A DNA stretch of 64,000 bases from Hydrogenophilales bacterium (GTDB taxonomy: Bacteria > Pseudomonadota > Gammaproteobacteria > Burkholderiales > Thiobacillaceae): contig JACPYT010000006.1 of NCBI GenBank assembly GCA_016195805.1, forward strand, positions 1 to 64,000, read 5' to 3'. The position numbers and the translations under genes were made by a program. Position 1 is the first letter of the stretch. The number at the start of each line of letters is the position of its first letter. Shown in pieces: positions 2,524-17,866 of this stretch. The notes beneath the pieces are model-generated. The model saw only the letters and a list, made by a program, of their open reading frames with translations. It made no database searches and was not told the DNA's origin.

Positions 2524-3489
2524 ATGCTGATCGAATGCTACGCCCAGCGCCTGCTCAATCCGTTTCGCGGAGCGGTGCACATCATTCGATACCAATCGGC
2601 CGAGGCGGTAACGACCGACGGCATCGAATGGGACATCTACGTGGCCAACGACGCCCTGCTCGACGGCCTGGGGCGTGCCGGGCGGCGGGCGCAGATTTCC
2701 GATATCCGCTACGGCCACTGGTCGGCGGAAAAAGGCCTGAAACGCGGCCCGCTCTTTCCCTCGGACGATTTCAAGCGGCTGGAAGACATGGGCGCCGTGG
2801 TGTACGAACACCTGCTCAAGGTGCATCGCGAGGCGCCCTTCGCCTTCCGCGACCAGTTCGAGCTCTGGCTGCTCGACCGGCACGACCAGCCGCTCGCGCT
2901 GTTGCACAGCGTGCGCACCGACATCGAAACCGACACCAAACCGCCGCTCGACTGGCGTGCCGGCATGGCGGCACAGGAACATTTCCAGAGCGCTGCGGTG
3001 GCCGATCTGAACGAGCCAGCCGGCGTGTATCTGACGCGCCACGTGAACAACCTCGCCGGCGGCGTGGTGCAATGGTTCCGTCGCTCGGATGACGGGGCGG
3101 GGCTGGGGCTGCATACGCTCAAAGGCGGCGACCACCTGCGCGGTCGCGTGCTCGATGCCGACGCCTTTCCCCAGCTGTTCATCTCCACCGCGGACATGGA
3201 CGATGCGCACACCCGGCTGGTGCACGACTATCATGCCTGGCAAGCGCCGTGGATGCTGCTGCTGCCGCACCTCGACGTTGCCACCCGCAGCAGGCTCGAA
3301 GCCTGCGCCTGCCAGCAGGCCGAGCTGATCGAAAAACACTGCCGGCTCTATCCCGTCGTGATCGATCGCCCCGCGCTGCATGCCGCGCGCGTCGAGGCGG
3401 CGCTGGTGCGCAGCCAGCCGTGCAAGAAGCCGGAGAACGAGGTCATGCCGATGTATTACATCGAGCTCGGCGTCAGCGCGGACGAATAA
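2524..3489 (+). CDS. Conserved hypothetical protein
   Basis: A 321-residue soluble protein with no signal peptide or membrane segment and no motif I recognise. It is rich in charged and aromatic residues and has a Cys pair near the C-terminus (ACACQQ). The ATG at 2524 overlaps, on opposite strands, with an ATG of the divergent HDOD frame, so one of those two is not a true start. There is no strong ribosome binding site. It stands alone between the HDOD gene and a convergent gene. Function not assigned. Confidence 0.7.
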   Translation: MLIECYAQRLLNPFRGAVHIIRYQSAEAVTTDGIEWDIYVANDALLDGLGRAGRRAQISDIRYGHWSAEKGLKRGPLFPSDDFKRLEDMGAVVYEHLLKVHREAPFAFRDQFELWLLDRHDQPLALLHSVRTDIETDTKPPLDWRAGMAAQEHFQSAAVADLNEPAGVYLTRHVNNLAGGVVQWFRRSDDGAGLGLHTLKGGDHLRGRVLDADAFPQLFISTADMDDAHTRLVHDYHAWQAPWMLLLPHLDVATRSRLEACACQQAELIEKHCRLYPVVIDRPALHAARVEAALVRSQPCKKPENEVMPMYYIELGVSADE

Positions 3490-3550
3490 TCAGGCCGCGA
3501 TCTTGTCGACCGGGGGTAAAGACTCTCGGGTAAGACGGGAAGGGGCGGGA

Positions 3551-4018
3551 CTATTGCCGGGGCGCGAGTGCCTGCTCGATTTTCCCGCTGTCGACATATT
3601 TTTCCAGTTCGCCGAGGCCCCGGGTCACACCGGGATCGGTGAACAGTTCGCGGGCAGCGACCTGGCCCAGCATCTGGAAACCGGTCTGCACCGCGGCGGC
3701 GCCCTCGTATTTCACCGCCTGCTGCGCCTGTGCCCGACACGATACGGTGAGCAGTTTTTCGAACAATTGCGCCGTGGATCGGGTGATCTCGGCACGTTCC
3801 GCTTCGGTCACCGATGCGATCGACTTGACCGCAGGATGCAGGGCCGCGGTGGCGAACATCCATTTGACCAGCGCATTCTTGTCGGCCGCGGTCGTCGATT
3901 CGACCAGACACTTGGCCAGATCGTCCGAATACGGACCCGCCTGTGCCAGCCCGGCGCCCAGGGCCAGCACACCCAGGGCGGCCTGCCCCCATCTCATCAC
4001 CGAGCTTCGTTGCGTCAT
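3551..4018 (-). CDS. Secreted hypothetical protein
   Basis: A 155-residue protein with a Sec signal peptide (hydrophobic stretch GQAALGVLALGAGLAQA, cleavage expected after AQA), so it is probably periplasmic. Two Cys residues in the mature part (DLAKCLVES and LLTVSCRAQ) could form a disulfide. The ATG at 4018 follows GAGGA overlapping the stop of the upstream gcvR-like gene, so it is probably translated from the same mRNA. No domain recognised. Confidence 0.72.
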   Translation of the reverse strand: MTQRSSVMRWGQAALGVLALGAGLAQAGPYSDDLAKCLVESTTAADKNALVKWMFATAALHPAVKSIASVTEAERAEITRSTAQLFEKLLTVSCRAQAQQAVKYEGAAAVQTGFQMLGQVAARELFTDPGVTRGLGELEKYVDSGKIEQALAPRQ

Positions 4019-4028
4019 CACCGTGTCC

Positions 4029-4568
4029 TCACATCCGTACCGGTTCGAAAGTCGCGTCGAGATTCTGGTCGTCGCAATAATCCAGGAAATCGCCGCGCAG
4101 GGTGGCGATGTGGGCATCGGCGGGGATGCCAAGCGTCATGTGGACAGCGAACATCGGCGCGCCGGTATGCGGGGCGGGATAGGTTTCGGTGTCGAGCGCC
4201 TCGATGTTGATGTGCAGGCGCGCGAAGAAGTTGGCGAGGCTGTTGACGATGCCGGGCTGGTCGAGCGCGGCGACCTCGACGGTATAGGGAATCAGCGGCT
4301 TGTCGGCACGCGTCGGGCGAGTGCGCTGCTGGGTGAGCGACAGGCCGAGCTCTTCGGCAACCGCAGGAAGCCGCGCTTCCAGTTTGGCCAGGGCGTCCCA
4401 GCTCCCCGACACGCGCATCAGCAGCGCAAAGCGTCCGCCGAGTGCAGCCATGCGCGACTCTTCGATATTGCAGCCGGATTCGTTGATGCGGCGGGTAAAA
4501 CCTTCCACCAGGCCGATTTTGTCTTCGCCGCTGGCGGTGATGACGAGTGATTCGGTGTCGTTGGCCAT
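4029..4568 (-). CDS. ACT-domain protein, glycine cleavage repressor (GcvR) family
   Basis: 179 residues forming two tandem ACT domains: SLVITASGEDKIGLVEGFTR at the N-terminus and YTVEVAALDQPGIVNSLANF in the second half. This is the architecture of GcvR, which in Escherichia coli binds glycine and antagonises GcvA. No gcv gene is nearby, so the role here is inferred from family only. It starts 2 bp after the AI-2E permease stop and is followed closely by a secreted protein gene, so the three are likely one transcript. Confidence 0.82.
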   Translation of the reverse strand: MANDTESLVITASGEDKIGLVEGFTRRINESGCNIEESRMAALGGRFALLMRVSGSWDALAKLEARLPAVAEELGLSLTQQRTRPTRADKPLIPYTVEVAALDQPGIVNSLANFFARLHINIEALDTETYPAPHTGAPMFAVHMTLGIPADAHIATLRGDFLDYCDDQNLDATFEPVRM

Positions 4569-4570
4569 GC

Positions 4571-5596
4571 TTAAATTAACTCCCGGTCGGACAGTTCTTT
4601 TTTGATATAGGCGTAAATGATCGGCGCGGCGATGACGCCTTGCACGCCGAACGCGGCTTCCATCACCAGCATGGCGACCAGCAGTTCCCATGCGCGCGCC
4701 TGGATCTGCCCCCCGATGATACGGGCATTCACGAAATATTCGAGCTTGTGAATGAAGATCAGGAATCCCAGCGATGCGGCGGCGACATGCAGCGATTGCG
4801 ACAGCGAAATGATGACGATCACGCTGTTGGAAATGAGATTGCCCAATACCGGTATCAGGCCGACCACGAAGGTGACCAGAATCATGGTCTTGGTGAAGGG
4901 CAGGGATACGCCGAACGCGGGCAGCACTCCCAGCAGATAAACCCCGGTCAACAGCGCATTGAGCGCCGAGATGCGAACCTGCGCAAATACCACCCGGCGG
5001 AAGGCCTCGCCCAGGCGGTGCATGCGCTCGCACATGGCTTGCGCCAACGGCGCCAGCGTCTGGTGCGGGATCGCCTCGCGTAGCGCGATGAGGCTGCCGA
5101 TCATGAGTCCGAGCATGAAATGCAGCAGCGTGTGTCCGACGTCGCCGCTGAGCTTGCGGATTTCCAGTGCATGGTTGCGCAGCCATTCGACCAGTCCGGC
5201 ACGGATGACCGATTCGTCGCCTTGCGGCAGCCACGATGCTGCCCACTGCGGCAGCAGCCCGCGCGAGCTGTCGATGATCTCGGCCATTTTCGTCAGCAGC
5301 CCCGTCACGCTCCCTTCGGCCCGCAGATACACGATCGCCCCTGCGGTAAACCCGCCCAGTGCACCCAGCACGATCAGCGTGATGAGCGACACCACCAGCA
5401 CCTTGGCCCAGTTATGGCTGAGGCGGCCGATGACAAAACGCGGCGCCAGCAGGTGCACCAGCTGGACCACCAGCAATCCCGCCAGCAAGGCCGGGAGCAG
5501 GTGAAACATCAGGGTAAACAACAGTCCGGCCGCCATCAGCAGCCAGGCGGCGATCTGATAGCGGGTAACGGCGAAAGGCGCAGGGGTGGCAGTCAT
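4571..5596 (-). CDS. AI-2E family transporter (inner-membrane permease)
   Basis: 341-residue polytopic membrane protein with paired hydrophobic helices at the N-terminus, a long amphipathic middle region and a cluster of helices at the C-terminus ending in the family-typical VLGNLISNSVIVIIS and GVQGVIAAPIIYAYIKKEL segments. The family includes TqsA, and most members are exporters of unknown substrate; the AI-2 role should not be assumed. The ATG at 5596 removes an implausible Arg-rich leader. It is the first gene of a short minus-strand run with the GcvR-like gene. Confidence 0.85.
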   Translation of the reverse strand: MTATPAPFAVTRYQIAAWLLMAAGLLFTLMFHLLPALLAGLLVVQLVHLLAPRFVIGRLSHNWAKVLVVSLITLIVLGALGGFTAGAIVYLRAEGSVTGLLTKMAEIIDSSRGLLPQWAASWLPQGDESVIRAGLVEWLRNHALEIRKLSGDVGHTLLHFMLGLMIGSLIALREAIPHQTLAPLAQAMCERMHRLGEAFRRVVFAQVRISALNALLTGVYLLGVLPAFGVSLPFTKTMILVTFVVGLIPVLGNLISNSVIVIISLSQSLHVAAASLGFLIFIHKLEYFVNARIIGGQIQARAWELLVAMLVMEAAFGVQGVIAAPIIYAYIKKELSDRELI

Positions 5597-5734
5597 GGCC
5601 GCACAGTGCCAATAAAAACGCTGTACGGCAAGCGCCTGCGCCGGACCACGCTCAGGGCTGCGCGTTGGGGGATGTTCTGCGCGACTTCGGGACCAGGCCC
5701 CTGCACCACCGCAGCGCGCATCCGCACACCCCAT

Positions 5735-6657: not shown

Positions 6658-7422
6658 TCATGGCTCAGCCTGGTAACCGAGTGCCGCACCGGTTTGGGTG
6701 GCGGCCAGCTTCAGCGCCTCGGCCCAGCCAGGCTTGTGACGGTCGGTCGGCGCCGAGATCGACAGGCCGGCGACCAGCTTGCCTTCGGCGTCGCGCACCG
6801 GCGCGCCGATGCAGGCCACCCCAAGTTCGGCTTCCTCGCGGTCATAGGCCAGCTGGGCGCGGCGTATGGTTTCCAGTTCGGCCGACAGGCGTGCCAGCGT
6901 GGTCAGGGTATTCGGCGTGTAGGCCGGCAAGCCGGTGCGCTCGGCGTAGCCCATCACCCCGCTGGGGCTGTCCTCGGCGAGGAAGATCTTGCCGACCGCG
7001 GTCACGTGCAGCGGCGCGTGCGCGCCGACCACCTGCACCACCTGGATCAGCGTCTGCCCGCCCGACACGCGCTCGACGTAGACCGCCTCGTCGCCGCGCC
7101 GCACGATCAGGTTGACCGTCTCGCCGGTCGCCTCGGCCAGTTGCTGCATGAAGGGCATGGCCACCTGACGGATATTCAGCCGTGCACGTAAGCGATTACC
7201 CACTTCCAGCCAGCGCACCCCCAGATCGTATTCGCCGGCACCGGTCTTCTCGACCAGGCCGTGTGCCATCAGTGCGCCGAGGATGCGATGCGCGCTGGCG
7301 GTATGCAGGCCGGCCTGTTCGGCCAGCCGGGTGAGGCTGACGGGGCCGGGTGCACGGGAGAGCACGCCGACCAGCGCCATGGCGCGGTCGAGTACCTGGA
7401 TGGAGGAGCTTGTGTTTTTCAT
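6658..7422 (-). CDS. IclR family transcriptional regulator
   Basis: 254 residues: N-terminal winged helix-turn-helix (about residues 10-65, VSLTRLAEQAGLHTASAHRILGAL) and a C-terminal IclR effector domain (from about 80, with VYVERVSGGQ, VTAVGKIFLA and GLSISAPTDR). It is divergent from the TPP enzyme-kinase-glcDEF operon, and the 107-bp gap between their starts contains several TTTCAC/GTGAAA dyads, so it most likely controls that operon and itself. The ligand may be glycolate, glyoxylate or a C4 acid; this is inference. Confidence 0.92.
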   Translation of the reverse strand: MKNTSSSIQVLDRAMALVGVLSRAPGPVSLTRLAEQAGLHTASAHRILGALMAHGLVEKTGAGEYDLGVRWLEVGNRLRARLNIRQVAMPFMQQLAEATGETVNLIVRRGDEAVYVERVSGGQTLIQVVQVVGAHAPLHVTAVGKIFLAEDSPSGVMGYAERTGLPAYTPNTLTTLARLSAELETIRRAQLAYDREEAELGVACIGAPVRDAEGKLVAGLSISAPTDRHKPGWAEALKLAATQTGAALGYQAEP

Positions 7423-7520
7423 AAAGTGAAAATTTATCACGCGATGTGAAATGGCCCGCAGTTTACTGCTTCAATACGTCCATCGTTTCACATCATGTGA
7501 AACATTTTCATATTGTGAAA
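7416..7520. promoter_or_regulatory. Cluster of IclR-type operator dyads
   Basis: The region between the divergent genes carries a repeated dyad. The best copy is TTTCACATCATGTGAAA at 7486-7502, 8-bp arms around one base with no mismatch. A second, TTTCATATTGTGAAA (7506-7520), touches the Shine-Dalgarno of the downstream gene. The half-site ATGTGAAA recurs at 7444-7451, paired with a weaker half around 7434-7440. A fourth, imperfect copy (7416-7432) overlaps the start codon of the iclR gene. The arrangement fits autoregulation and control of the operon. Confidence 0.7.
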
Positions 7521-7529
7521 GGAGTCGCC

Positions 7530-9755
7530 ATGAGCGTCCAGATGCAATCCACCCCCGAGACCTTGCCCGCCTTCTGCGAGGGTATCCAGTACTTCGCCGA
7601 CAGCTTCCCCGAAATCGACCGCCTGGGCGCCGCCCCGCTGCTGGGCCCCAATCAGCCCGCGCTGCCCGACGCGACCAGCGAGGCTGCGGTCTACCAGACC
7701 CTGCTCGCCGCCGACGCGCTGCGCTACCTGACCCTGCAGGTCACCGGCAGCAAGTCGTCCGGCCACCCGGGCGGCTTCGCCTCCAGCGCCGACGCCGTCG
7801 CTGCACTGCACCTGCTGGGCCACCGCAACATGGTGACCGAGGTCGGCCACCACGCGCCCGGCTTCTATTCGGCGATGTTCCTCGACACCTCGCTCGAAGA
7901 CATGGGCATCCACAGCGTGGCCGAGATGCGCGCGCGTTTCCGTGAACGTCACGGCCTACTGGGTCACCTGTCGGGCGCGATCCCCGGCCTGCTGGCCCCC
8001 GCCGGCCCGCTCGGCCAAGGCCAGCATTTCGCCATGGCCGGCGCCTACCTGCACCGCAACAAGCTCTTCCCCGTCACCATCGGCGACGGCGGCCTCGGCG
8101 AGCCCTACATCATGAGCGCGTTCCAGCACTTCGCCACCGCGTATCCGGACGTCACCAACTACCTGCCGGTGCTGGTGTGGAACGGCTACTCGCAGGAGCA
8201 CCACAGCATGGTGTCGCTGTGGGACAACGCACGCATGACCGACTACTGGCGGGCGCACGGCTTCGACGACGTGTACCTGGTCGACGCCCGCGAGTTCGCC
8301 GACACGCCCGACGCCCCGGTGTATACAGATTCGACGACCTTCGGCTTCGCCGCGCGCATGGCCTTCATCGGCGCGATCCTGAAGGCCGCCGACGCCGCCG
8401 CGAAGAGTGCGCTCTCGGGCCGCCGCGCCTGCCTCATCGTCAAGCAGCTGAAGGGCGCGGGCGTGCACGCCACCGGTGCCAAGTCGCACAACCTGTACGC
8501 GCACCACACGCTCGATTCCGACGACGTCAAGGACGGCCTGCAGCGCCGCGCGCTGCCGATCAAGGCGTGGGAACTCGTGCGCGAGAACTTCCGCCACGCC
8601 GGCGGCGGCCCCGCCGCCAAGATCGCGGTGACCGAAAGCGTGCGCGAACTGCCCAGCCTCGAAGGACTTGCGCTGACCGAATTCACCGTCGGCGAGAACC
8701 ACATCCCGACCACGGCCTTCGGCCACGTGGTCGGCGAGGTCGGCAAGCGCGACCCGATGTTCGTGGTGACCAACGCCGACGGCAACGAAGCCTCGGGTAT
8801 GGCCAACATCAACAAGGCGCTGACGATCCGCCACCCGACCGCCGACAACCTCTACTTCCAGGGCCCATCCGGCCAAGTCTACGAACCGCTCAACGAGGAC
8901 GCCTGCGCCGGCCTCGCGGTGGGCGTGTCGCTGTTCGGCGGCCGCAGCCTGTGGTGCAGCTACGAGTCCTTCGCCATCAACGGCCTGCCGATCTGGCAGA
9001 CGGTGACGCAGGCGATGGCCGAACTGCGCCGTCCGACCCCGGCGACGGTGTGCCTGTTCACCGCCGGCGCGCTGGAGCAGGGCCGCAACGGCTGGACCCA
9101 CCAGCGCCCCGAAATCGAGAGCTACTTCGCCGCGATGATGCGCAACGGCAACGTCTACCCGCTGTTCCCGGTCGACGCCAATATGATCCAGGCGAGCTAC
9201 GACTGGGCGCTGAAGCAGCACAACAAGGGCATCGTGATCACGGCCTCGAAGTCGCCGCTGCCGATCCATGCGACGCTGGCGCAGAGCTATCAGGCGATCG
9301 ACGATGGTGCGATGGTGCTGCAGGAGCGTCCGGGCTCGCACAGCGTGGTGTTCGCGGTCACCGGCGACATGGTGCTGCAGCCGGTGTTCGCCGCCGCCGC
9401 GAAGCTGGCCGAGGCCGGCATCGGCTCGCGCATCGTCGCGGTGGTCAACCCGCGCCGCCTGTACCGCCCGAGCGACGTGCTGTGGGATAGCGTGTCGGAG
9501 CCCGACGGCCGCTTCATGGACGACGATGCCTTCCGTGCGATGTTCCACGGCGACGTGCTGATCGGCGTCACCGGCGGTCCCTCGGCGCCGCTGGAGCCGG
9601 TGCTGCTGCGCAGCCAGGCGGCGCAGCGCGACGTGTTCTGCTGGAAGCGCGGCGAGACCACCGCCAGCCCGCAGCAGCTGTTCGACTTCAACGGCATGAA
9701 CGCCCAGGCGATGCACGAGCGCGCGCTGGCGATGCTGGAGCGGGTGGCGGCATGA
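7530..9755 (+). CDS. TPP-dependent transketolase/phosphoketolase-like enzyme
   Basis: 741 residues. The TPP fold is clear: SGHPGG (about 78-82), GPLGQG (159-164, a transketolase hallmark) and a GDG...N cofactor motif (GDG at 185-187, Asn at 218). The second half resembles phosphoketolases more than transketolases: WCSYESFAINGL and NGWTHQRPEIESYF match the positions of the phosphoketolase CYEAF and NGFSHQ segments. Databases sometimes label such proteins xylulose 5-phosphate 3-epimerase; the reaction here is not certain. The ATG at 7530 has AAAGGAG seven bases upstream. It overlaps the kinase gene by ATGA. Confidence 0.85.
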   Translation: MSVQMQSTPETLPAFCEGIQYFADSFPEIDRLGAAPLLGPNQPALPDATSEAAVYQTLLAADALRYLTLQVTGSKSSGHPGGFASSADAVAALHLLGHRNMVTEVGHHAPGFYSAMFLDTSLEDMGIHSVAEMRARFRERHGLLGHLSGAIPGLLAPAGPLGQGQHFAMAGAYLHRNKLFPVTIGDGGLGEPYIMSAFQHFATAYPDVTNYLPVLVWNGYSQEHHSMVSLWDNARMTDYWRAHGFDDVYLVDAREFADTPDAPVYTDSTTFGFAARMAFIGAILKAADAAAKSALSGRRACLIVKQLKGAGVHATGAKSHNLYAHHTLDSDDVKDGLQRRALPIKAWELVRENFRHAGGGPAAKIAVTESVRELPSLEGLALTEFTVGENHIPTTAFGHVVGEVGKRDPMFVVTNADGNEASGMANINKALTIRHPTADNLYFQGPSGQVYEPLNEDACAGLAVGVSLFGGRSLWCSYESFAINGLPIWQTVTQAMAELRRPTPATVCLFTAGALEQGRNGWTHQRPEIESYFAAMMRNGNVYPLFPVDANMIQASYDWALKQHNKGIVITASKSPLPIHATLAQSYQAIDDGAMVLQERPGSHSVVFAVTGDMVLQPVFAAAAKLAEAGIGSRIVAVVNPRRLYRPSDVLWDSVSEPDGRFMDDDAFRAMFHGDVLIGVTGGPSAPLEPVLLRSQAAQRDVFCWKRGETTASPQQLFDFNGMNAQAMHERALAMLERVAA

Positions 9756-11086
9756 CCCCCAAGATCATCGTTCTCGACGACGACCCCACCGGCTCGCAGA
9801 CGGTGCATTCCTGCCTGCTGCTGACGCGCTGGGACGTCGCCACGCTGAAAACGGCGCTGGCCGACACCGCGCCCTTGTTCTTCGTCCTCACCAACACGCG
9901 TGGGCTCGATGCGGAACGCGCGGCGGCGGTGACGCGCGAGGTATGCGAGAACCTCAGGGCGGCGCTCGCCGACTACGCCGGCCCGGTGCTGTTCGTGTCG
10001 CGCTCGGACTCGACCTTGCGCGGCCACTATCCGGTCGAGACCGACGTGATGAATGACGTGCTCGGGCCGTTCGACGCCACGCTCCTGACCCCCGCATTCT
10101 TCGAGGGCGGACGCATCACGCGCGACAGCACGCACTATCTGATGGTCGACGGCAAGCCGATCCCCACGCATGAAACCGAATTCGCGCGCGACTCGGTGTT
10201 CGGCTACCGCACCGCGTTCCTGCCCGATTACGTCGCCGAGAAAACCGGCGGCCGCGTCGCCGCCGCCGATGTCGCGCGCCTGACTCTCGCTGGCCTGCGC
10301 GCTGGCGAGGCGGACACCTGGCTCGCCGCGCTGCACGACAACGCGATCGGCGTGATCGACGGTGATACACCCGACGACTACCGGATATTCGCCGATGCCG
10401 TGCTCAAGGCCGCCGCGGCCGGCAAACGCCTGCTGTTCCGCAGCGCCGCCTCGCTGCTCACCGCGCTGGCGAAGCTGCCGCCGCAACCGGTAGCCGCCGA
10501 AGCCTTCGCCACCCTGGTGCGCGACGGTCGGCCCGGCGCGGTCGTGGTCGGCTCGCACGTCGCCCGGACCACCGCTCAACTGACCGCATTGCTGAAGCAA
10601 CGCGGCGTGGTCGGCCTGCCGCTCGACGTCGCCCGTCTGCCGGCCGCGCGCGCGGCTGTCGTCGATGAACTGACCGCGAGCATCGCCCATGCGCATGCGC
10701 AGAGCCTCACCCCGGTGGTGTTCACCAGCCGCGGCGAACGCCAATTCGCCAGCGTGGCCGAGCGCCTGGCCTTCGGCGAGGCAGTGTCGGGCACGCTGAT
10801 GGATATCGTGCAGCGCCTGCCGGACACGCTGGGCTTCCTCGTCAGCAAGGGCGGCATCACGTCCAACGACGTGCTGTCGACCGGGCTCGAACTGACTGCG
10901 TCGCGCGTACTGGGACAGATCCTGCCCGGCGTCACCGTGGTGCAGACGCCGCCGTGGCACCGCCTGCCGCAGCTGCCGGTGGTGATCTTCCCGGGCAACG
11001 TCGGCGACGACGACGCGCTGGCGGAAGCCTACCGACGCCTCGCCCCCTCGCATGCGCAGGCAAGCCCGGCTAAACTCGCGGCCTGA
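9752..11086 (+). CDS. Four-carbon acid sugar kinase (DUF1537 family, OtnK/DtnK-like)
   Basis: 444 residues with the two halves of the DUF1537 fold: the N-terminal substrate domain (DDDPTGSQTVH at residues 9-19, SRSDSTLRGHYPVE) and the C-terminal nucleotide domain (SKGGITSNDV near residue 368). Characterised members phosphorylate 3-oxo-tetronate, erythronate or threonate with ATP. It is translationally coupled to the TPP enzyme (ATGA) and sits 21 bp before glcD, so it belongs to the same operon. The companion aldolase-like decarboxylase (OtnC) that usually accompanies 3-oxo-tetronate kinases is not in the window. Confidence 0.9.
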   Translation: MTPKIIVLDDDPTGSQTVHSCLLLTRWDVATLKTALADTAPLFFVLTNTRGLDAERAAAVTREVCENLRAALADYAGPVLFVSRSDSTLRGHYPVETDVMNDVLGPFDATLLTPAFFEGGRITRDSTHYLMVDGKPIPTHETEFARDSVFGYRTAFLPDYVAEKTGGRVAAADVARLTLAGLRAGEADTWLAALHDNAIGVIDGDTPDDYRIFADAVLKAAAAGKRLLFRSAASLLTALAKLPPQPVAAEAFATLVRDGRPGAVVVGSHVARTTAQLTALLKQRGVVGLPLDVARLPAARAAVVDELTASIAHAHAQSLTPVVFTSRGERQFASVAERLAFGEAVSGTLMDIVQRLPDTLGFLVSKGGITSNDVLSTGLELTASRVLGQILPGVTVVQTPPWHRLPQLPVVIFPGNVGDDDALAEAYRRLAPSHAQASPAKLAA

Positions 11087-11107
11087 TCCCACCCGCCACT
11101 CGCCTGC

Positions 11108-12562
11108 ATGATCAGTCCCGCCTTTCTCTCCCAGCTGCGACGCCTCTTGCCGCCGCACTGCGTGCTCAACGAGCGCGAGGACCTGCTGCCGTTCGAGTCC
11201 GACGGCCTGTCGGCCTACCGCAATACGCCCGACGTGGTGGTGTTGCCGGAGAGCGAGGCACAAGTGGCGGCGATCCTGCAGCTGTGTCACAAGGAGCAGG
11301 TGGCGGTGGTGGCGCGCGGCGCCGGCACCGGCCTCGCCGCCGGCGCGCTGCCGATTGACGGTGCGGTGCTACTGGTGCTGGCCAAGCTCAACCGGATCAA
11401 GGCAATCGACCCGCTGGCGCGGACGGCGACGGTACAGCCCGGCGTGCGCAACCTGGCGATCTCCGAAGCCGCCGCCGCACATGGCCTCTACTACGCGCCC
11501 GATCCTTCGTCGCAGATCGCCTGCTCGATCGGCGGCAACGTGGCGGAGAACTCGGGCGGCGTGCACTGCCTGAAATACGGACTCACCGTGCACAATATCC
11601 TCAGGCTGCGCGCCTGGACGGTCGATGGGCAACTACTAGAAATCGGCAACGAGTCGCTCGACGCGCCCGGCTACGACCTGCTGGCGCTGCTGACCGGCTC
11701 GGAAGGCATGCTGGCGGTGATCACCGAGGTCACGGTCAAGCTGCTGCCACGCCCCGAGCGCGCGCAGGTCGTGCTGGCGGCATTCGACGACGTCGCGAAG
11801 GCCGGCGCCGCAGTCGGCAACATCATCGCCGCCGGCGTCATCCCTGCCGGCCTCGAGATGATGGACCGGCTCGCCATCCAGGCCGCCGAGGCCTTCGTCC
11901 ACGCCGGCTATCCGCTCGACTGCGAAGCGCTGCTGCTGTGCGAAGTCGACGGCGTCAACGAGGAAGTGTCGGACGACATCTTCACCGTCCACGAGGTGCT
12001 CGCGGCATCCGGCGCAACCGAGATCCGCACCGCCGACAGCGAGGAACAGCGGCTGAAATTCTGGGCCGGACGCAAGGCGGCGTTCCCGGCTGTGGGGCGC
12101 CTTTCGCCCGACTACTACTGCATGGACGGCACCATCCCGCGCGGCGCTTTGCCGCATGTGCTGAAGCGCATCAGCGAGATGAGCAGCGAATTCGGCCTTC
12201 GGGTCGCCAACGTGTTCCACGCCGGCGACGGCAACCTGCATCCGCTGATCCTGTTCGATGCCAACCAGCCCGGCGAATTGCACAAGGCCGAAAGCTTCGG
12301 CGGCAGGATCCTCGAGCTGTGCGTCGAGGTCGGCGGCACCATCACCGGCGAACACGGCGTCGGGCTGGAGAAGATCAACCAGATGTGCGCGCAGTTCGCC
12401 ACCCCTGAACTGGTGCGCTTCCACGAGGTGAAGGCCGCATTCGACCCCGGCACCCTGCTCAACCCGGGCAAGGCCGTGCCCGAGTTGCACCGCTGCGCCG
12501 AGTGGGGCGCGATGCACGTCCACGGCGGCCAGCTGCCGCATCCCGCGCTGCCGAGGTTCTGA
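11108..12562 (+). CDS. glcD: Glycolate oxidase subunit GlcD (FAD-linked)
   Basis: 484 residues: FAD-binding PCMH domain (about 50-230, with VARGAGTGLAAGALP as the pyrophosphate loop and GGNVAENSGGVHCLKYG) and a C-terminal FAD-linked oxidase domain ending in GTITGEHGVGLEKI. Catalyses oxidation of glycolate to glyoxylate together with GlcE and GlcF at the membrane. The stop overlaps the glcE start by one base. In an autotroph the substrate would come from 2-phosphoglycolate made by Rubisco oxygenase activity. Confidence 0.95.
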   Translation: MISPAFLSQLRRLLPPHCVLNEREDLLPFESDGLSAYRNTPDVVVLPESEAQVAAILQLCHKEQVAVVARGAGTGLAAGALPIDGAVLLVLAKLNRIKAIDPLARTATVQPGVRNLAISEAAAAHGLYYAPDPSSQIACSIGGNVAENSGGVHCLKYGLTVHNILRLRAWTVDGQLLEIGNESLDAPGYDLLALLTGSEGMLAVITEVTVKLLPRPERAQVVLAAFDDVAKAGAAVGNIIAAGVIPAGLEMMDRLAIQAAEAFVHAGYPLDCEALLLCEVDGVNEEVSDDIFTVHEVLAASGATEIRTADSEEQRLKFWAGRKAAFPAVGRLSPDYYCMDGTIPRGALPHVLKRISEMSSEFGLRVANVFHAGDGNLHPLILFDANQPGELHKAESFGGRILELCVEVGGTITGEHGVGLEKINQMCAQFATPELVRFHEVKAAFDPGTLLNPGKAVPELHRCAEWGAMHVHGGQLPHPALPRF

Positions 12563-13626
12563 TGCTGGACGCTTACATCGACCGCATCCGCGCGGCCCAC
12601 GCCGAAGACTCGCCGCTCATCATCCAGGGGGGCGGCAGCAAGACCTTCTATGGCAACCCCGATGAAGGCGAGGTCCTCGCCGCCCGCGCGCTTGCCGGCG
12701 TGGTCGATTACCAGCCGAAGGAACTGGTGCTGACCGCGCGCGCCGGCACCCCGCTCGCCCAAGTCGAAGCGCTGCTCGCCGAGCAGAACCAGATGCTGGC
12801 GTTCGAGCCGCCGCATTTCGGCGGGCCTGCGACCCTGGGCGGCTGCATCGCCGCTGGCCTCTCCGGTCCGCGCCGCCCCTACGCCGGCGCCGCACGCGAC
12901 TTCGTGCTCGGCGTGCGCATGATCGACGGCACCGGCCAGCCGCTGCGCTTCGGCGGCCAGGTGATCAAGAACGTCGCCGGCTACGATGTATCGCGCCTGA
13001 TGGTTGGCGCGCTCGGCACGCTCGGCCTCATCACCGAGATCTCGCTCAAGGTGTTGCCGAAGCCGGCGGCGGAGGCCACGCTGCAATTCGAACTTGATGA
13101 AACCGAGGCGATTGTGAAAATGAACCAGTGGGCAGGGCAGCCGCTGCCCCTGTCGGCCACCAGCTGGCATGCCGGCCTGCTGACGGTGCGGCTGTCGGGT
13201 GCCGCCTCCGCAGTGCACGCCGCACAAGCCAAGCTCGGCGGCGAAGCCCTGAAAGACGCCGCCGCCTTTTGGCAACGCCTGCGCGACCACGCGACCCCTT
13301 TCTTCGACAGGCACCCGTCGACGCTAAATCAACGCCTGTGGCGGCTGGCGGTCAAACCGACCACGCCGCCGATGAATCTGGGCGGCGCGCAATGGATCGA
13401 ATGGGGCGGTGCGATACGCTGGCTGACTTCCGACCTGGCGGCGGCCACGCTGCGCGAAGCGGCAACAACGGCCGGCGGCCACGCCACCCAGTTCCGCGGC
13501 AATGCGCCCGCCGACGGCGTTTTCGCACCGCTCGCACCGGCACTCGCGACATTGCACCGCAGCCTCAAGCAACGCTTCGACCCCAAGGGCATTTTCAACC
13601 GCGGCCGCCTGTATCCCGATTTCTGA
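12562..13626 (+). CDS. glcE: Glycolate oxidase subunit GlcE
   Basis: 354 residues; a second, shorter FAD-binding subunit. Visible features are IIQGGGSKTFYG near the N-terminus (pyrophosphate loop), FGGPATLGGCIAAGLSGPRRPY, and GGQVIKNVAGYDVSRLMVGALGTLG. The length is normal for GlcE. The ATG at 12562 overlaps the TGA of glcD. It works as a complex with GlcD and GlcF. Confidence 0.94.
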   Translation: MLDAYIDRIRAAHAEDSPLIIQGGGSKTFYGNPDEGEVLAARALAGVVDYQPKELVLTARAGTPLAQVEALLAEQNQMLAFEPPHFGGPATLGGCIAAGLSGPRRPYAGAARDFVLGVRMIDGTGQPLRFGGQVIKNVAGYDVSRLMVGALGTLGLITEISLKVLPKPAAEATLQFELDETEAIVKMNQWAGQPLPLSATSWHAGLLTVRLSGAASAVHAAQAKLGGEALKDAAAFWQRLRDHATPFFDRHPSTLNQRLWRLAVKPTTPPMNLGGAQWIEWGGAIRWLTSDLAAATLREAATTAGGHATQFRGNAPADGVFAPLAPALATLHRSLKQRFDPKGIFNRGRLYPDF

Positions 13627-13627
13627 C

Positions 13628-14887
13628 ATGCAGACCACTCTCGCCGATTCCTTCCGCAACACCCCCGAGGGCGAGGTCGCCGAGCGCATCCTGCGCAATT
13701 GCGTGCACTGTGGCTTCTGCCTCGCCACCTGCCCCACCTACCAGATTCTCGGCAACGAACTCGACTCGCCGCGCGGCCGCATTTACCTGATGAAGCAGGT
13801 GCTCGAGGGCGCGACGCCGACGGCCAGGACCCAGCTGCACCTCGACCGCTGCCTGACCTGCCGCAACTGCGAAACCACCTGCCCTTCGGGCGTGGAATAC
13901 GGCAAGCTGCTCGACATCGGCCGCCACATCGTCGACGACAAGGTCGGGCGCAGCATGCGTGAAACCGCGACCCGGGCAGCGCTGAAGACCAGCCTCGGAT
14001 CGCCCATGCTGTTCAACAGCGCGCTGAAGCTCGGCCAGAGCGTGCGCGGTCTGATGCCCGGTTTTCTGAAAACCCGTATTCCGGCCGCTGAAACCGCAGG
14101 CGCCTGGCCCGTACCGCGCCATGCTCGCCGCATGCTGGTCCTGCAGGGCTGCGTACAGCCCGGCCTCAAGCCCAACATCAACACCGCCACCGCACGCGTG
14201 CTCGACCGGCTGGGTATTTCCTTGGTCGCCGCGGACGAAGCCGGCTGCTGCGGCGCGCTGGCGCATCACCTGAACGACACCGCGGACGGTCTCGCCGCCG
14301 CGCGCCGCAACATCGACGCCTGGCTGCTGCATCTCGAGGCCGGCGTGGAGGCCATCGTGATGACGGCGTCGGGCTGCGGCGTGATGGTGAAGGATTACGG
14401 CTGGCTGCTGCGCCACGACCCGCGCTACGCCGACAAGGCCGCACGCGTCTCCGCCGCGACGCGGGACATCTCGGAAATCCTCGCCGCCGAACGCGACGCG
14501 CTTGCGCCGCTTTTATCCTCGCGCAGCGAGGGCACTGCTCACCGCTCTCAACTCACTGAAAAACGCATCGCCTACCACCCGCCCTGCACCCTGCAACACG
14601 GGCAGAAGCTCACGGGCGATGTCGAGGCGCTGCTTGCGCAGGCCGGATTCGAACTCACGCCGGTGGCGGAGAAACACCTGTGCTGCGGCTCGGCCGGCAC
14701 CTACTCGATCCTGCAGCCCGAGATCGCCGGCGCACTCAAAGCCCGAAAACTCGGCCATCTGCAGGCGGGCGCACCGGACATGATCGTCACCGCCAACATC
14801 GGCTGCCTCACCCATCTGCAGTCGGGCAGCCCGATTCCGGTGCGCCACTGGGTGGAACTTCTGGACGAAGCGCTGGCCCCATCTTGA
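13628..14887 (+). CDS. glcF: Glycolate oxidase iron-sulfur subunit GlcF
   Basis: 419 residues. Two 4Fe-4S motifs at the N-terminus (CVHCGFCLATCP and CLTCRNCETTCP) are followed by two CCG domains (DEAGCCGALAHH and HLCCGSAGTYS), the heterodisulfide reductase-like layout of GlcF. It passes electrons from the flavin subunits to the quinone pool. The ATG at 13628 lies one base after the glcE stop; upstream in-frame Met codons fall inside glcE. Confidence 0.95.
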   Translation: MQTTLADSFRNTPEGEVAERILRNCVHCGFCLATCPTYQILGNELDSPRGRIYLMKQVLEGATPTARTQLHLDRCLTCRNCETTCPSGVEYGKLLDIGRHIVDDKVGRSMRETATRAALKTSLGSPMLFNSALKLGQSVRGLMPGFLKTRIPAAETAGAWPVPRHARRMLVLQGCVQPGLKPNINTATARVLDRLGISLVAADEAGCCGALAHHLNDTADGLAAARRNIDAWLLHLEAGVEAIVMTASGCGVMVKDYGWLLRHDPRYADKAARVSAATRDISEILAAERDALAPLLSSRSEGTAHRSQLTEKRIAYHPPCTLQHGQKLTGDVEALLAQAGFELTPVAEKHLCCGSAGTYSILQPEIAGALKARKLGHLQAGAPDMIVTANIGCLTHLQSGSPIPVRHWVELLDEALAPS

Positions 14888-14906: not shown

Positions 14907-15656
14907 ATGATTTTCAGACAGCTGTTCGAACCCATTTCCAGCACCTACACCTATCTCCTCGGCTGCGAGGAAACCGGCCAGGCGCTACTGATCGACCCGG
15001 TGCTGCCGACCTGGGAACGGGACCTGGGCGAGGTGAACCGGCTCGGCCTCACGCTCGCATTCACGGTCGAGACGCACATCCACGCCGACCACATCACCTC
15101 GGCCAGAAAGCTCAAGGACATCGCCGGCAGCCGCATCGCCGGCCCCGCGCTCGACCGGCTGCCGTGCACCGACGTCGGGGTCGCCGAAGGCACGCCGTTC
15201 AGGATGGGCTCGGTCGAACTGACGCCGCTCCACACGCCCGGCCATACCGACAATCACTTCGCCTACCTGAACGGCGACCGCCTCTACAGCGGCGACGCCC
15301 TGCTGATCGAGGCCTGCGGCCGCACCGACTTCCAGAACGGCGACGCGACCGCGCTGTATCACACGGTGCGCGGCAAGCTGTTCGCGCTCGACGACGACAC
15401 CCTGGTCTATCCCGCCCACGACTACGAGCAGCGCCGCGTCAGCAGCATCGGGCAGGAAAAGGCGCGCAACCCCCGGCTCGGCGGCGATCGCACGCTGGAT
15501 GACTTCGTCGGATTGATGGGCGGGTTGAAGCTCGCCTACCCCAGGTTCATCGACTATGCCGTGCCCGGCAACCGCGAATGCGGCGTCTGTCCGCCCGGCG
15601 TGCCGGAGCATCTGCAGCAGTATTGCGCGCAGATCGTAGCGAGCCGGCAGGGTTGA
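14907..15656 (+). CDS. MBL-fold hydrolase, ETHE1-like persulfide dioxygenase family
   Basis: 249 residues with the metallo-beta-lactamase signature THIHADH (about 55), HTPGHT (about 110) and a later metal-binding YSGDALLI. The N-terminus ([19 protein letters not shown]) and the overall length match ETHE1/Blh-type persulfide dioxygenases, which use one iron to oxidise glutathione persulfide to sulfite; glyoxalase II is longer and binds two metals. Last gene of the glc run, 19 bp after glcF. Why a persulfide dioxygenase would be here is not obvious, so a role in detoxifying aldehyde-thiol adducts cannot be excluded. Confidence 0.82.
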
Positions 15657-15669
15657 TTCCAGCAGCGGG

Positions 15670-16230
15670 CTAGGACCTGAGATCGTCGGGCTGATTGAAG
15701 TTGGCAAAGCCGGCGGCATCGAAGCGCACCCGCGTCGAGGACAGTTCCGCCTGCCAGTGGCGCACCGCGCGTTCGCCGCGTGCGAGAAACCCGGCCAGAT
15801 GGTCACGCTGGTCGGCATGCACGAGGAAGCAGCTATGGTGCACACGCGCCGCGTCCTCCACCACCGCCAGCGGCACGCTTTCCAGCTGCGCCGCGCCCAG
15901 CAGGCGAAGCGCCAGATCGGCGGGCAGGTGCGGCGTATCGCACGGGACGACCAGCAGCCAGTCCGCCGTCACTGCCTGCAGCGCCGCCAGCACGCCGGCC
16001 AGCGGACCCTGAAAATCGGGCAGGGTATCGGGCAGGACCCGGCGGCCATACGCCGCGTAGCGCTCGAGGTTGCGATTGGCGCTGATGACGATTTCCTCGA
16101 CCTGCGGCGCCAGCGCGGCCAGCACCCACTCGATCAGCGGGCGGCCCTGATAGTCGATCAGCCCCTTGTCCGCGCCGCCCATGCGGCGGCCCTGGCCGCC
16201 TGCCAGAATGACCGCGGCCACATTTTGCAT
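15670..16230 (-). CDS. mobA: Molybdenum cofactor guanylyltransferase MobA
   Basis: 186 residues opening with the nucleotidyltransferase loop VAAVILAGGQGRRMGGADKG, followed by VVPCDTPHLP. MobA transfers GMP from GTP to molybdopterin-Mo to make the bis-MGD cofactor of DMSO reductase family enzymes. The ATG at 16230 gives the usual family N-terminus. It lies 10 bp downstream of the ArnT-like gene on the same strand and converges with the glc operon. Confidence 0.92.
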   Translation of the reverse strand: MQNVAAVILAGGQGRRMGGADKGLIDYQGRPLIEWVLAALAPQVEEIVISANRNLERYAAYGRRVLPDTLPDFQGPLAGVLAALQAVTADWLLVVPCDTPHLPADLALRLLGAAQLESVPLAVVEDAARVHHSCFLVHADQRDHLAGFLARGERAVRHWQAELSSTRVRFDAAGFANFNQPDDLRS

Positions 16231-16240
16231 GCCCGGACTT

Positions 16241-17866
16241 TCAGCGGCGGCCATACAGCTGGAAACGATCCGAGCGGTCGCCCGGGCGGGCGCCTTCCCA
16301 CTGCTTGTCCCACCCACCCGGTATGCGCGGCGGGGCTTCGTGGCGGCGGGTTTCCACCAGCAGCCAGTTGCAGCGTGGATCAGCAGGGGCAAACTGCCGT
16401 CCACTGTGATAGGCCAGCAGTTCGCGTTGCTGGGTTCGCACGCGATAGGTCTGGATGCAGTCTGCTGGCGGCACCCGCGCCGCCAGTTCCGCGCCCACGC
16501 TGGTGTAGGACAGGCGCTGATCGAGCGGCGCCTGGAAGAGTGCCATCAGCAGCCCCCAGCTGAAAGTCATGCCCGCCGTCCACACCAGGATGGGCCGCAG
16601 CGGCGAACGACGGACGCGGGCGAGAAACATGATCCACGCCAGCGTGACGACGCAACCCAGCGCCAGCGCCCACGGCCGGAATACGCCCACGCGGGTCATG
16701 CCCAGCCTGGCCAGTCGGGCCGCCAGCTGGGTCGGGCTGCCCAGGTCATGCGCGCTCCAGTAGACCCAGAGGACCAGCGCGAGGAAGCCGAACAGCATGA
16801 TGCTGAACCACAACAAGGCATAGGCGGCACCGCGTCGCAGCGTGAGCAGCCCCGACGCGCCCAGCAAGGCCAGCGGTAGCAGCAGAATCAGGCCCTGTTC
16901 CTCACCGGGATCGGTATCGAAAGCATACAGGGCGAGCAGGCCCAGCAATGCGACGGCCGGCAGCACCATACCCGGCGTGCGCCACTGACGCCGGCCGCGG
17001 TAGAGCGCCCAGGCCGCCAATGGCCATGCCGGCCAGGCATACCAGCCGAGCATGCCCAGATAGAAAGCCGGGCGCAGTTCCGTTTCCCTGAACCAGCGCT
17101 GCAGATTAAATGCCAGCTTGAAAGGAACCCCCTGCGTGGCGAGATACGTCAGCCATGCCGCGCTCGCGACGATCGCCATGCCGACGCCCCAGGCCAGCGC
17201 GCGCCGCGCTGCCGGAGTACGGTAATCTTCCAGCAGCACGGGCAGCAGACCGGCAAGCAACAGGAACCAGACGGCTTCCGCAGCGCCCCCCGCAAGCAGC
17301 ATCAATACCGCGCCGCCCCCCAGCGCACCTACCCCGAGCACGCCGTCGCGGCGCGTGGCCTGCGGCAGACTGGCGAGGCCATAGAGCATCATCGCAGCTG
17401 CAGCGAACTGGGCGGTCGCCGCATTGAGTTCATGGCCGCGGACCAGCAGGCCCATGCAGCCCAGCAAGGTGAGCGCGGCCGCCCATGCTGACTCTGCGCC
17501 ATACAGCAGACGGGCCGTGCGTGCGACAAATAACAGCGCCAGCGCGATGAACAGCCCCGAGGCCAGCCGCGCGCCGTCGGCCAGGGGCAGGAAGGCCGAA
17601 GTGAGCCAAGCGGTGGCGGTGGCCACCCAGTAATACAACGGCGCAGCAGACACGGACTGCGGGGCGGCCCCGCTTTTCAGCAGCAGCCACAACCTCACGA
17701 AATGCTCGCCGTCGCCGCCTTTCCAGGGCGCATGTCCGACCAGCCCGGGCAATAGCCAGGCCACGCAAAGCAGCAGGAGCCCGATCCGGGCAAGGGGAAG
17801 CGAACGCTTATTGGACAATTTTGAGGAGCTGGCCCGGCCCGGGCTCGCCATTAGGGTAGAAACCAT
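16241..17866 (-). CDS. ArnT-like polytopic membrane glycosyltransferase (GT39/PMT superfamily)
   Basis: About 541 residues with some ten or more hydrophobic segments and a short soluble C-terminal domain. The acidic first loop (WKGGDGEHFVRLW) and the overall layout suit lipid-phosphate-sugar glycosyltransferases such as ArnT. The acceptor is unknown. The start is uncertain: the ATG codons at 17866 and 17851 lie inside the M48 gene end and have no clear ribosome binding site; a TTG near 17818 is possible. Confidence 0.72.
   Translation of the reverse strand: MVSTLMASPGRASSSKLSNKRSLPLARIGLLLLCVAWLLPGLVGHAPWKGGDGEHFVRLWLLLKSGAAPQSVSAAPLYYWVATATAWLTSAFLPLADGARLASGLFIALALLFVARTARLLYGAESAWAAALTLLGCMGLLVRGHELNAATAQFAAAAMMLYGLASLPQATRRDGVLGVGALGGGAVLMLLAGGAAEAVWFLLLAGLLPVLLEDYRTPAARRALAWGVGMAIVASAAWLTYLATQGVPFKLAFNLQRWFRETELRPAFYLGMLGWYAWPAWPLAAWALYRGRRQWRTPGMVLPAVALLGLLALYAFDTDPGEEQGLILLLPLALLGASGLLTLRRGAAYALLWFSIMLFGFLALVLWVYWSAHDLGSPTQLAARLARLGMTRVGVFRPWALALGCVVTLAWIMFLARVRRSPLRPILVWTAGMTFSWGLLMALFQAPLDQRLSYTSVGAELAARVPPADCIQTYRVRTQQRELLAYHSGRQFAPADPRCNWLLVETRRHEAPPRIPGGWDKQWEGARPGDRSDRFQLYGRR

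Follow-up and report, generated by a model that had tools for sequence, protein, structure and literature searches.

The window analysed here is a stretch of 64,000 nucleotides on contig JACPYT010000006.1 of a Hydrogenophilales bacterium (assembly GCA_016195805.1; Thiobacillaceae, Burkholderiales). It contains one operon, at 7530-14887, that encodes a thiamine pyrophosphate (TPP)-dependent enzyme, a DUF1537 acid-sugar kinase and the glycolate oxidase subunits GlcD, GlcE and GlcF, with a gene for an IclR-family regulator divergent from it. We favor the possibility that this operon serves a Calvin-cycle sulfur bacterium as a module for phosphoglycolate salvage (photorespiration), with a ketol-transfer route as its likeliest chemistry, and put the probability of this reading at roughly 0.5. 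There is strong evidence that the TPP enzyme and the kinase are one unit, found widely among carbon-fixing bacteria, many cyanobacteria among them, and equally strong evidence that this module is coupled to glycolate oxidation in autotrophs. From the linkage, the co-occurrence and the type of host we infer that the unit consumes glyoxylate, and a role in glyoxylate disposal is very likely. The specific chemistry that we propose, namely ketol transfer, a kinase step and decarboxylation, stands at slightly under even odds. An initial annotation of this DNA had placed the five genes in a single operon as a glycolate salvage route; all five are where it put them, and the operon stood up to analysis, while the TPP-kinase pair proved to be a widespread module.

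Gene linkage was assessed by scanning the contigs of GTDB genomes with 18 homologues, which confirmed at least 517 relatives among 585 matching stretches; the best 80 loci were kept, by our own count 30 proteobacterial and 50 cyanobacterial (numbers with L and G are our labels for loci and genomes). The kinase gene follows the TPP gene in 29 of the 30 proteobacterial loci and GlcD is near in 27, so the cluster is not a chance arrangement, in keeping with the earlier claim. The misses are L019, at a contig end, for both kinase and GlcD, and L020 and L040 for GlcD. The window's order was represented by 300 genomes: 28 of them have the TPP enzyme, these 28 also have the kinase, and none of the 272 non-carriers has it; by the listed coordinates the two genes are adjacent on a single contig in every carrier. 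Flanks were available for 24 of these carriers, and in all of them the kinase comes after the TPP gene in the same orientation, the aligned parts being 8-348 bp apart. GlcD is near the pair in 20 of the 24 (the others are L171, L175, L177 and L179, of which L177 ends 1.9 kb past the kinase at a contig end).

In cyanobacteria the two genes are rarely neighbors: the kinase is near the TPP gene in only 2 of the 50 loci (L038 and L082, ~8 kb off), and no TPP gene was seen on any of 36 fetched cyanobacterial kinase stretches. The PF07005 domain by itself proved a misleading marker for the kinase, as it matches 179 of 194 cyanobacterial-phylum genomes, and the count was therefore remade with the window kinase as query. 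On this basis the TPP enzyme (E<=1e-30) is present in 70 of the 194 genomes and a close kinase (E<=1e-140) in 72, the latter in 69 of 70 TPP-positive vs 3 of 124 TPP-negative genomes, such that presence agrees in 190 of 194; the mismatches are G165 (TPP enzyme without kinase) and G139, G152 and G216 (kinase without TPP enzyme). Sixteen further genomes of the phylum have weaker kinase matches, either at 36-49% identity or, in G180, as fragments. With shared ancestry ignored, Fisher p for the co-occurrence is 1e-47 in the cyanobacterial set and 5e-40 in the order. Of 35 carrier genomes searched via the loci, 34 gave a PF07005 kinase match, in some cases a fragmentary one. The trees of the two proteins mirror one another (54 genomes, r 0.86, 0 of 2000 permutations; G308, with its kinase at a contig end, G317, G492 and G393 were left out), which indicates joint inheritance, and some genera of the window's family carry a pair from a different deep clade, the same one for both genes. 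Around the 50 cyanobacterial TPP loci and 42 kinase loci we found no conserved neighbor that would explain the function; minC/minD-like genes, named by eye, are near the kinase in 20 of the 42. No phage-borne copies were confirmed in a scan of viral_contigs. As a separate observation, G180, which has no TPP enzyme, holds a decayed kinase gene (G180:C1:574220-574641; pieces at 65% and 53% identity, interrupted by stops), and a joint loss of both genes is possible there.

Nearly every carrier of the pair in the order has RuBisCO. A RuBisCO match (PF00016, E<=1e-20, a threshold that lets in RuBisCO-like proteins) was obtained in 130 of the 300 genomes, comprising 27 of 28 carriers vs 103 of 272 non-carriers (Fisher p 5e-10); the carrier without one is G521, and that of G492 is weak (1.6e-46). 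At E<=1e-100, counted by eye, the figures are 26 of 28 vs 84 of 272. Two members of the window's family that lack the pair, G355 and G427, have a single RuBisCO match (about 1e-122) that falls below form-I-like scores, perhaps signifying form II only, and the carrier G393 shows the same pattern. The source genome (2.96 Mb, 99.85% complete, with the window on its contig C5) has two RuBisCO large-subunit matches, a single copy of the TPP gene and a single DUF1537 gene. The search for glyoxylate carboligase (Gcl) that the initial annotation had proposed found none in this genome and none in the 28 carriers (TIGR01504, E<=1e-150); 29 of the 300 order genomes have it, and taken by itself the tendency of Gcl and the module to exclude each other is weak (Fisher p 0.04 to 0.09). 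Malate synthase (PF01274) is likewise missing from the source genome, which is one of 26 carriers without it among 33 tested. With neither Gcl nor malate synthase, the source genome lacks the key enzyme of two of the four salvage routes set out in PMC7486775. According to that paper, ~60% of RuBisCO genomes outside the cyanobacteria and 2% of cyanobacterial species have malate synthase. It also describes the salvage of phosphoglycolate in Cupriavidus necator through the glycerate pathway and the malate cycle, and a strain deprived of both fails to grow autotrophically at ambient CO2; glycolate oxidation followed by glyoxylate disposal in a Calvin-cycle chemolithoautotroph is common to both cases, whereas the key enzymes used there, Gcl and malate synthase, are absent here. 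The part of the initial claim that concerned glycolate salvage gains from the position of the pair beside glycolate oxidase in Calvin-cycle bacteria without Gcl and, in the source genome, without malate synthase, while its chemistry stays a proposal. Malate synthase, itself a consumer of glyoxylate, stands immediately ahead of the pair in two genera (G271, G276), which speaks for a role in glyoxylate metabolism.

In Calvin-cycle organisms it is established that the product of the RuBisCO oxygenase reaction is dephosphorylated to glycolate. In the route that we propose this step would supply the glycolate, and GlcDEF, judged by family membership, would oxidize it to glyoxylate. With a Calvin-cycle ketose phosphate (xylulose 5-phosphate or fructose 6-phosphate) as donor and glyoxylate as acceptor, the TPP enzyme would then transfer a two-carbon ketol unit and so form 3-oxo-tetronate; the DUF1537 kinase would phosphorylate its C4 hydroxyl; and the resulting phosphorylated beta-keto acid would lose CO2, either spontaneously or with the help of a class II aldolase, to form dihydroxyacetone phosphate (DHAP), which would go back into the Calvin cycle. 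The net reaction would be glyoxylate + xylulose 5-phosphate + ATP to glyceraldehyde 3-phosphate + DHAP + CO2 + ADP, and would use neither amino-group transfer nor NADH. Our reasoning for favoring ketol transfer is that a ketol unit plus glyoxylate makes precisely the substrate of a known DUF1537 activity, that of 3-oxo-tetronate kinase (3-OtnK). Such a route would be distinct from the C2 cycle, the glycerate pathway, decarboxylation via oxalate and oxalyl-CoA, and the malate cycle; no description of it was found in searches of the open-access full-text literature, a body of work that does not take in preprints. The module supplies two enzymes that are open to direct testing, and the route, if true, would offer a short bypass without NADH or ammonia for the engineering of photorespiration.

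The TPP enzyme (7530..9755, + strand, 741 amino acids), our proposed glyoxylate ketol-transferase, belongs to a separate family of the phosphoketolase/transketolase fold. It matches the Pfam domains of that fold weakly (PF03894 42.5, PF02779 33.3 and PF09364 25.5 bits), reaches only 53-86 bits against the curated phosphoketolase models (PRK05261 set; cut-offs 777-1518), and scores 34.5 bits against transketolase TIGR00232 (cut-off 682) and 44.8 against the best transketolase equivalog (cut-off 488). Plain membership of either family was rejected on these scores and both were kept as functional rivals. Structure alignments with phosphoketolase show a common fold over most of the chain at 16-19% identity. 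By hand count, E456, H146, H524, N520, Y478 and K574 align with phosphoketolase E479, H142, H553, N549, Y501 and K605, which we take to be catalytic residues, with roles and numbering partly assumed; all six are invariant in 38 sequences. Candidate counterparts of the four histidines mutated according to phosphoketolase structure titles are also invariant in the 38, two of them directly aligned (H142 with H146, H553 with H524) and two placed by motif, by eye. The position of phosphoketolase H548, an active-site residue beside N549, is R519 in the TPP enzyme, an arginine in all 38. The GHPGG and GPLGQG motifs resemble those of transketolase. As confidence in the structure model is low at 140-160 and 513-528, regions that include active-site residues, no substrate pocket was read from it.

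These comparisons bear on the possibility that the TPP enzyme acts as a second phosphoketolase and produces acetyl phosphate, for instance for malate synthase, with the kinase link incidental. The enzyme shares with phosphoketolase (XFP, EC 4.1.2.9/4.1.2.22) its fold, the positions of catalytic His and Glu and the weak Pfam XFP matches, but differs in the invariant arginine, in scores far under the curated cut-offs and in its genetic tie, near absolute for the kinase, to the kinase and glycolate oxidase. Together with a separate phosphoketolase-type protein in the source genome, which has no malate synthase to feed, these differences make a second phosphoketolase improbable. Transketolase (EC 2.2.1.1) offers the fold and a ketol transfer onto an aldehyde such as we propose, but the acceptor envisaged here is an acid aldehyde, glyoxylate, and the score is 34.5 vs 682 bits.

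The question also concerns cyanobacteria, for which the genes sll0529 of Synechocystis and alr1850 of Nostoc have been published as encoding a putative second phosphoketolase ('pket2'), the activity of sll0529 being said to need verification (PMC7744508). The same source states that two Anabaena phosphoketolases have been characterized biochemically and counts alr1850 as the second isozyme; alr1850 is listed as a transketolase in PMC4915528. Both proteins very probably belong to the family of the TPP enzyme, a placement based on annotation names rather than sequences; the family member of Trichormus variabilis is named 'Transketolase, central region'. Moriyama et al. in 2015 reportedly tested three putative Anabaena phosphoketolases, of which Alr1850 is said, without confirmation, to have been the inactive one. 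We tentatively suggest, at a little under even odds, that a two-enzyme salvage route made up of a new-family ketol-transferase and a DUF1537 kinase, with loss of CO2 to DHAP, is common to chemolithoautotrophic proteobacteria and many cyanobacteria, and that the cyanobacterial 'second phosphoketolase' is its TPP enzyme. If so, a protein family that now carries the phosphoketolase label in many cyanobacteria would gain a function, and the flux models that count it as such would be corrected.

The kinase (9752..11086, + strand, 444 amino acids), our proposed 3-oxo-tetronate 4-kinase, has both DUF1537 domains (SBD_N/NBD_C; PF07005 178 bits, cut-off 25; PF17042 129 bits, cut-off 28.3), and it matched no OtnK model in NCBIfam. 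Kinases of this family include 3-OtnK, whose product is decarboxylated to DHAP (PMC12540250). The L-threonate pathway LtnD-OtnI-OtnK-OtnC thus resembles the lower half of the proposed route, in that a DUF1537 kinase forms a 4-phosphate that is then decarboxylated to DHAP; unlike that pathway, the operon holds no LtnD, OtnI or OtnC of the Aldolase_II type, the genome has no Aldolase_II, and 3-oxo-tetronate would derive from glyoxylate rather than from threonate. A further reading, that the genes break down external or repair-derived C4 sugar acids (threonate, erythronate) and that glycolate oxidase is linked through a two-carbon product, draws on the known place of DUF1537 kinases in such pathways (PMC12540250) and on a distant DUF1537 gene beside PdxA in a small cyanobacterial genome (L121). 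The operon contains neither the dehydrogenase nor the isomerase of those pathways, nearly all carriers have RuBisCO, and the score against the threonate kinase model is far below its cut-off; we consider this reading very unlikely. The distant gene belongs to another DUF1537 subfamily, present in seven cyanobacterial-phylum genomes of 1.7-2.1 Mb (L120-L124, L134, L139) in a conserved cluster and unmatched by the window kinase at 1e-6. In L121, the only one in which neighbors were named, SSB-like and PdxA-family genes adjoin it, which suggests threonate or erythronate 4-phosphate chemistry or a link to vitamin B6.

Several results weigh against the ketol-transfer route. (i) It would cost one CO2 per glyoxylate, twice that of the glycerate pathway. 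(ii) The sole kinase equivalog matched by the window kinase is that of D-threonate kinase DtnK (NF047819), at 68.6 bits against a cut-off of 450. (iii) Deletion of slr0453 together with sll0529, the latter probably the TPP enzyme, left Synechocystis growing with glucose in light at a rate equal to or slightly above that of wild type (PMC9034593); cyanobacteria have other routes. (iv) The sll0529 transcript was up only 1.10-fold in ambient vs high CO2 (PMC7744508). (v) Of the 20 proteobacterial carriers tested, 7 have malate synthase, including G393 of the same genus, so the module is not simply a substitute for it. (vi) The last step has no named enzyme, as Aldolase_II (PF00596), the OtnC-type decarboxylase, is absent from the source genome. 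The initial annotation had looked to an OtnC-like decarboxylase elsewhere in the genome; this expectation failed for the Aldolase_II type, which is absent from 15 of 33 carrier genomes, the source included, and was rejected as a conserved partner. (vii) Genes for tartronate semialdehyde reductase (TSR) and glycerate kinase, neither of which a route to DHAP needs, occur near the pair in some relatives, as detailed below.

With regard to the decarboxylation, 2-OtnC decarboxylases have a PF01116 domain (PMC12540250), and two other loci lend the reading some support: the operon of the gammaproteobacterium L073 has, between its kinase and GlcD genes, one of class II aldolase type (PF01116; above the cut-off of the broad cbbA subfamily model only), and a 33% relative is beside the cluster in L040. 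Such a gene was seen in these two loci only (L100 is the same genome as L073), a further point against the route; no such gene is on any of the 24 order stretches, and no PF01116 search of the source genome was made. A class II aldolase forms the enediolate of DHAP. Since decarboxylation of 3-oxo-4-phosphotetronate would give the same enediolate intermediate, a Calvin-cycle aldolase could serve in carriers that show no gene dedicated to the step.

The TSR and glycerate kinase genes raise the possibility of a glycerate-pathway variant, in which the TPP enzyme would be an unrelated replacement for Gcl (2 glyoxylate to tartronate semialdehyde + CO2), followed by TSR and by a kinase, either glycerate kinase or the DUF1537 kinase, to phosphoglycerate. 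A TSR-type gene is on 5 of the 24 order stretches (L160, L163, L164, L175 and L180) and glycerate kinase is near the pair in 2 of the 24, both from carriers that lack Gcl. Gene order in G271 is TSR, 2-hydroxyacid dehydrogenase, glycerate kinase, malate synthase, TPP enzyme, kinase and GlcDEF, and G254 is similar but without malate synthase; TSR and the dehydrogenase precede the pair in G512 (which matches L022), and TSR-type genes are also on the G457 and G416 stretches. Gcl was not found in G254, G271, G512, G276, G457 or G416. The TSR of L022, a sequence that matches L180, passes TIGR01505 (376 vs 340.75), and a 55% relative is near the cyanobacterial kinase gene in L084. However, the separate glycerate kinase in the G254 and G271 clusters would leave the DUF1537 kinase idle, which argues that the latter has another substrate; this kinase is almost never parted from the TPP enzyme; known Gcl is of a different TPP-enzyme family; and no TSR relative (E<=1e-15) was found on the other 19 order stretches, whose genomes were not searched elsewhere, or in the window. 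We regard the glycerate variant as unlikely, and the bypass of the glycerate pathway claimed by the initial annotation is not established given the TSR genes. Among 120 matches listed for the L022 TSR as query, most are nameless and the names include Sulfuriferula, Sulfuricella, Sideroxyarcus, Sideroxydans, Gallionella, Nitrosomonadales and a mine drainage metagenome.

The divergent regulator (6658..7440, - strand; start GTG 7440 or an ATG near 7422) is an IclR-family protein (PF01614, 150 bits) whose best NCBIfam model is BhcR (NF045644), at 175 bits against a cut-off of 350. Homologues 80-93% identical neighbor the pair in 18 of the 20 loci L004-L023 (exceptions L010 and L022). BhcR governs glyoxylate assimilation in Paracoccus, where glyoxylate weakens its binding to DNA (PMC11323563), and the regulator here probably senses glyoxylate. 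The arrangement recalls the beta-hydroxyaspartate cycle of that source in having a BhcR-kind regulator divergent from a glyoxylate-using cluster; unlike it, the operon has no genes of the cycle, and the BhcR score falls short. The gap between the two divergent genes holds a perfect 17-bp inverted repeat, TTTCACATCATGTGAAA (7486..7502), 44 bp ahead of the TPP start; it is a probable operator and the sole such site in the window. Of 40 proteobacterial loci, 12 carry an exact or variant copy at -42 to -44, and every one of these belongs to the Thiobacillus-type set L004-L023 (L019 was outside the evaluation).

As to the remaining layout, the TPP reading frame as listed starts at GTG 7446; ATG 7530 was taken as the start because the resulting 741 amino acids fit the 731-757 of most close homologues. 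The protein is 85-93% identical to proteins named Thiobacillus. The kinase start overlaps the TPP stop by 4 bp (ATGA) and the GlcD and GlcE genes overlap too, which makes co-expression likely. GlcD (FAD subunit, 11108..12562, + strand) appears from its profile scores to be a clear relative of glycolate oxidase GlcD, with full-length matches slightly below both cut-offs (821 vs 897 bits, PRK11230; 535 vs 568, TIGR00387); GlcE (FAD-binding subunit, 12562..13626, +) and GlcF (iron-sulfur subunit, 13628..14887, +) exceed theirs (531 vs 284 and 665 vs 333 bits). Next come a GloB-like hydrolase of the metallo-beta-lactamase fold (14907..15656, +; PF00753 60 bits; GSH_gloB 98 vs a cut-off of 200.8) and, beyond it, MobA, a molybdenum cofactor guanylyltransferase (15670-16404, -). 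The hydrolase is linked mainly in Thiobacillus-type loci, with a 71-73% relative near the pair in L176 and L178, and its part in the pathway is doubtful. MobA also adjoins GlcF in several relatives (L024, L163, L172, L174, L181).

On the other side of the regulator, a conserved membrane-type protein without a Pfam match (4571-5734, - strand; true start probably a later ATG, MTATPAPF...) recurs in Thiobacillus-type loci, again upstream of the regulator, and in L075 lies between kinase and GlcD on the opposite strand. A further candidate gene, 'up276' (3380-4210, +), was rejected by eye as a shadow frame. The locus L004 (JAIBEL010000067.1), filed as a Rhizobium metagenome-assembled genome, carries the Thiobacillus cluster (eight genes, 78-93% identity) and is probably mis-binned. 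In two gammaproteobacteria a glutathione S-transferase-like gene is inserted between GlcE and GlcF (L026, 9329-10048; L035, 16566-17225).

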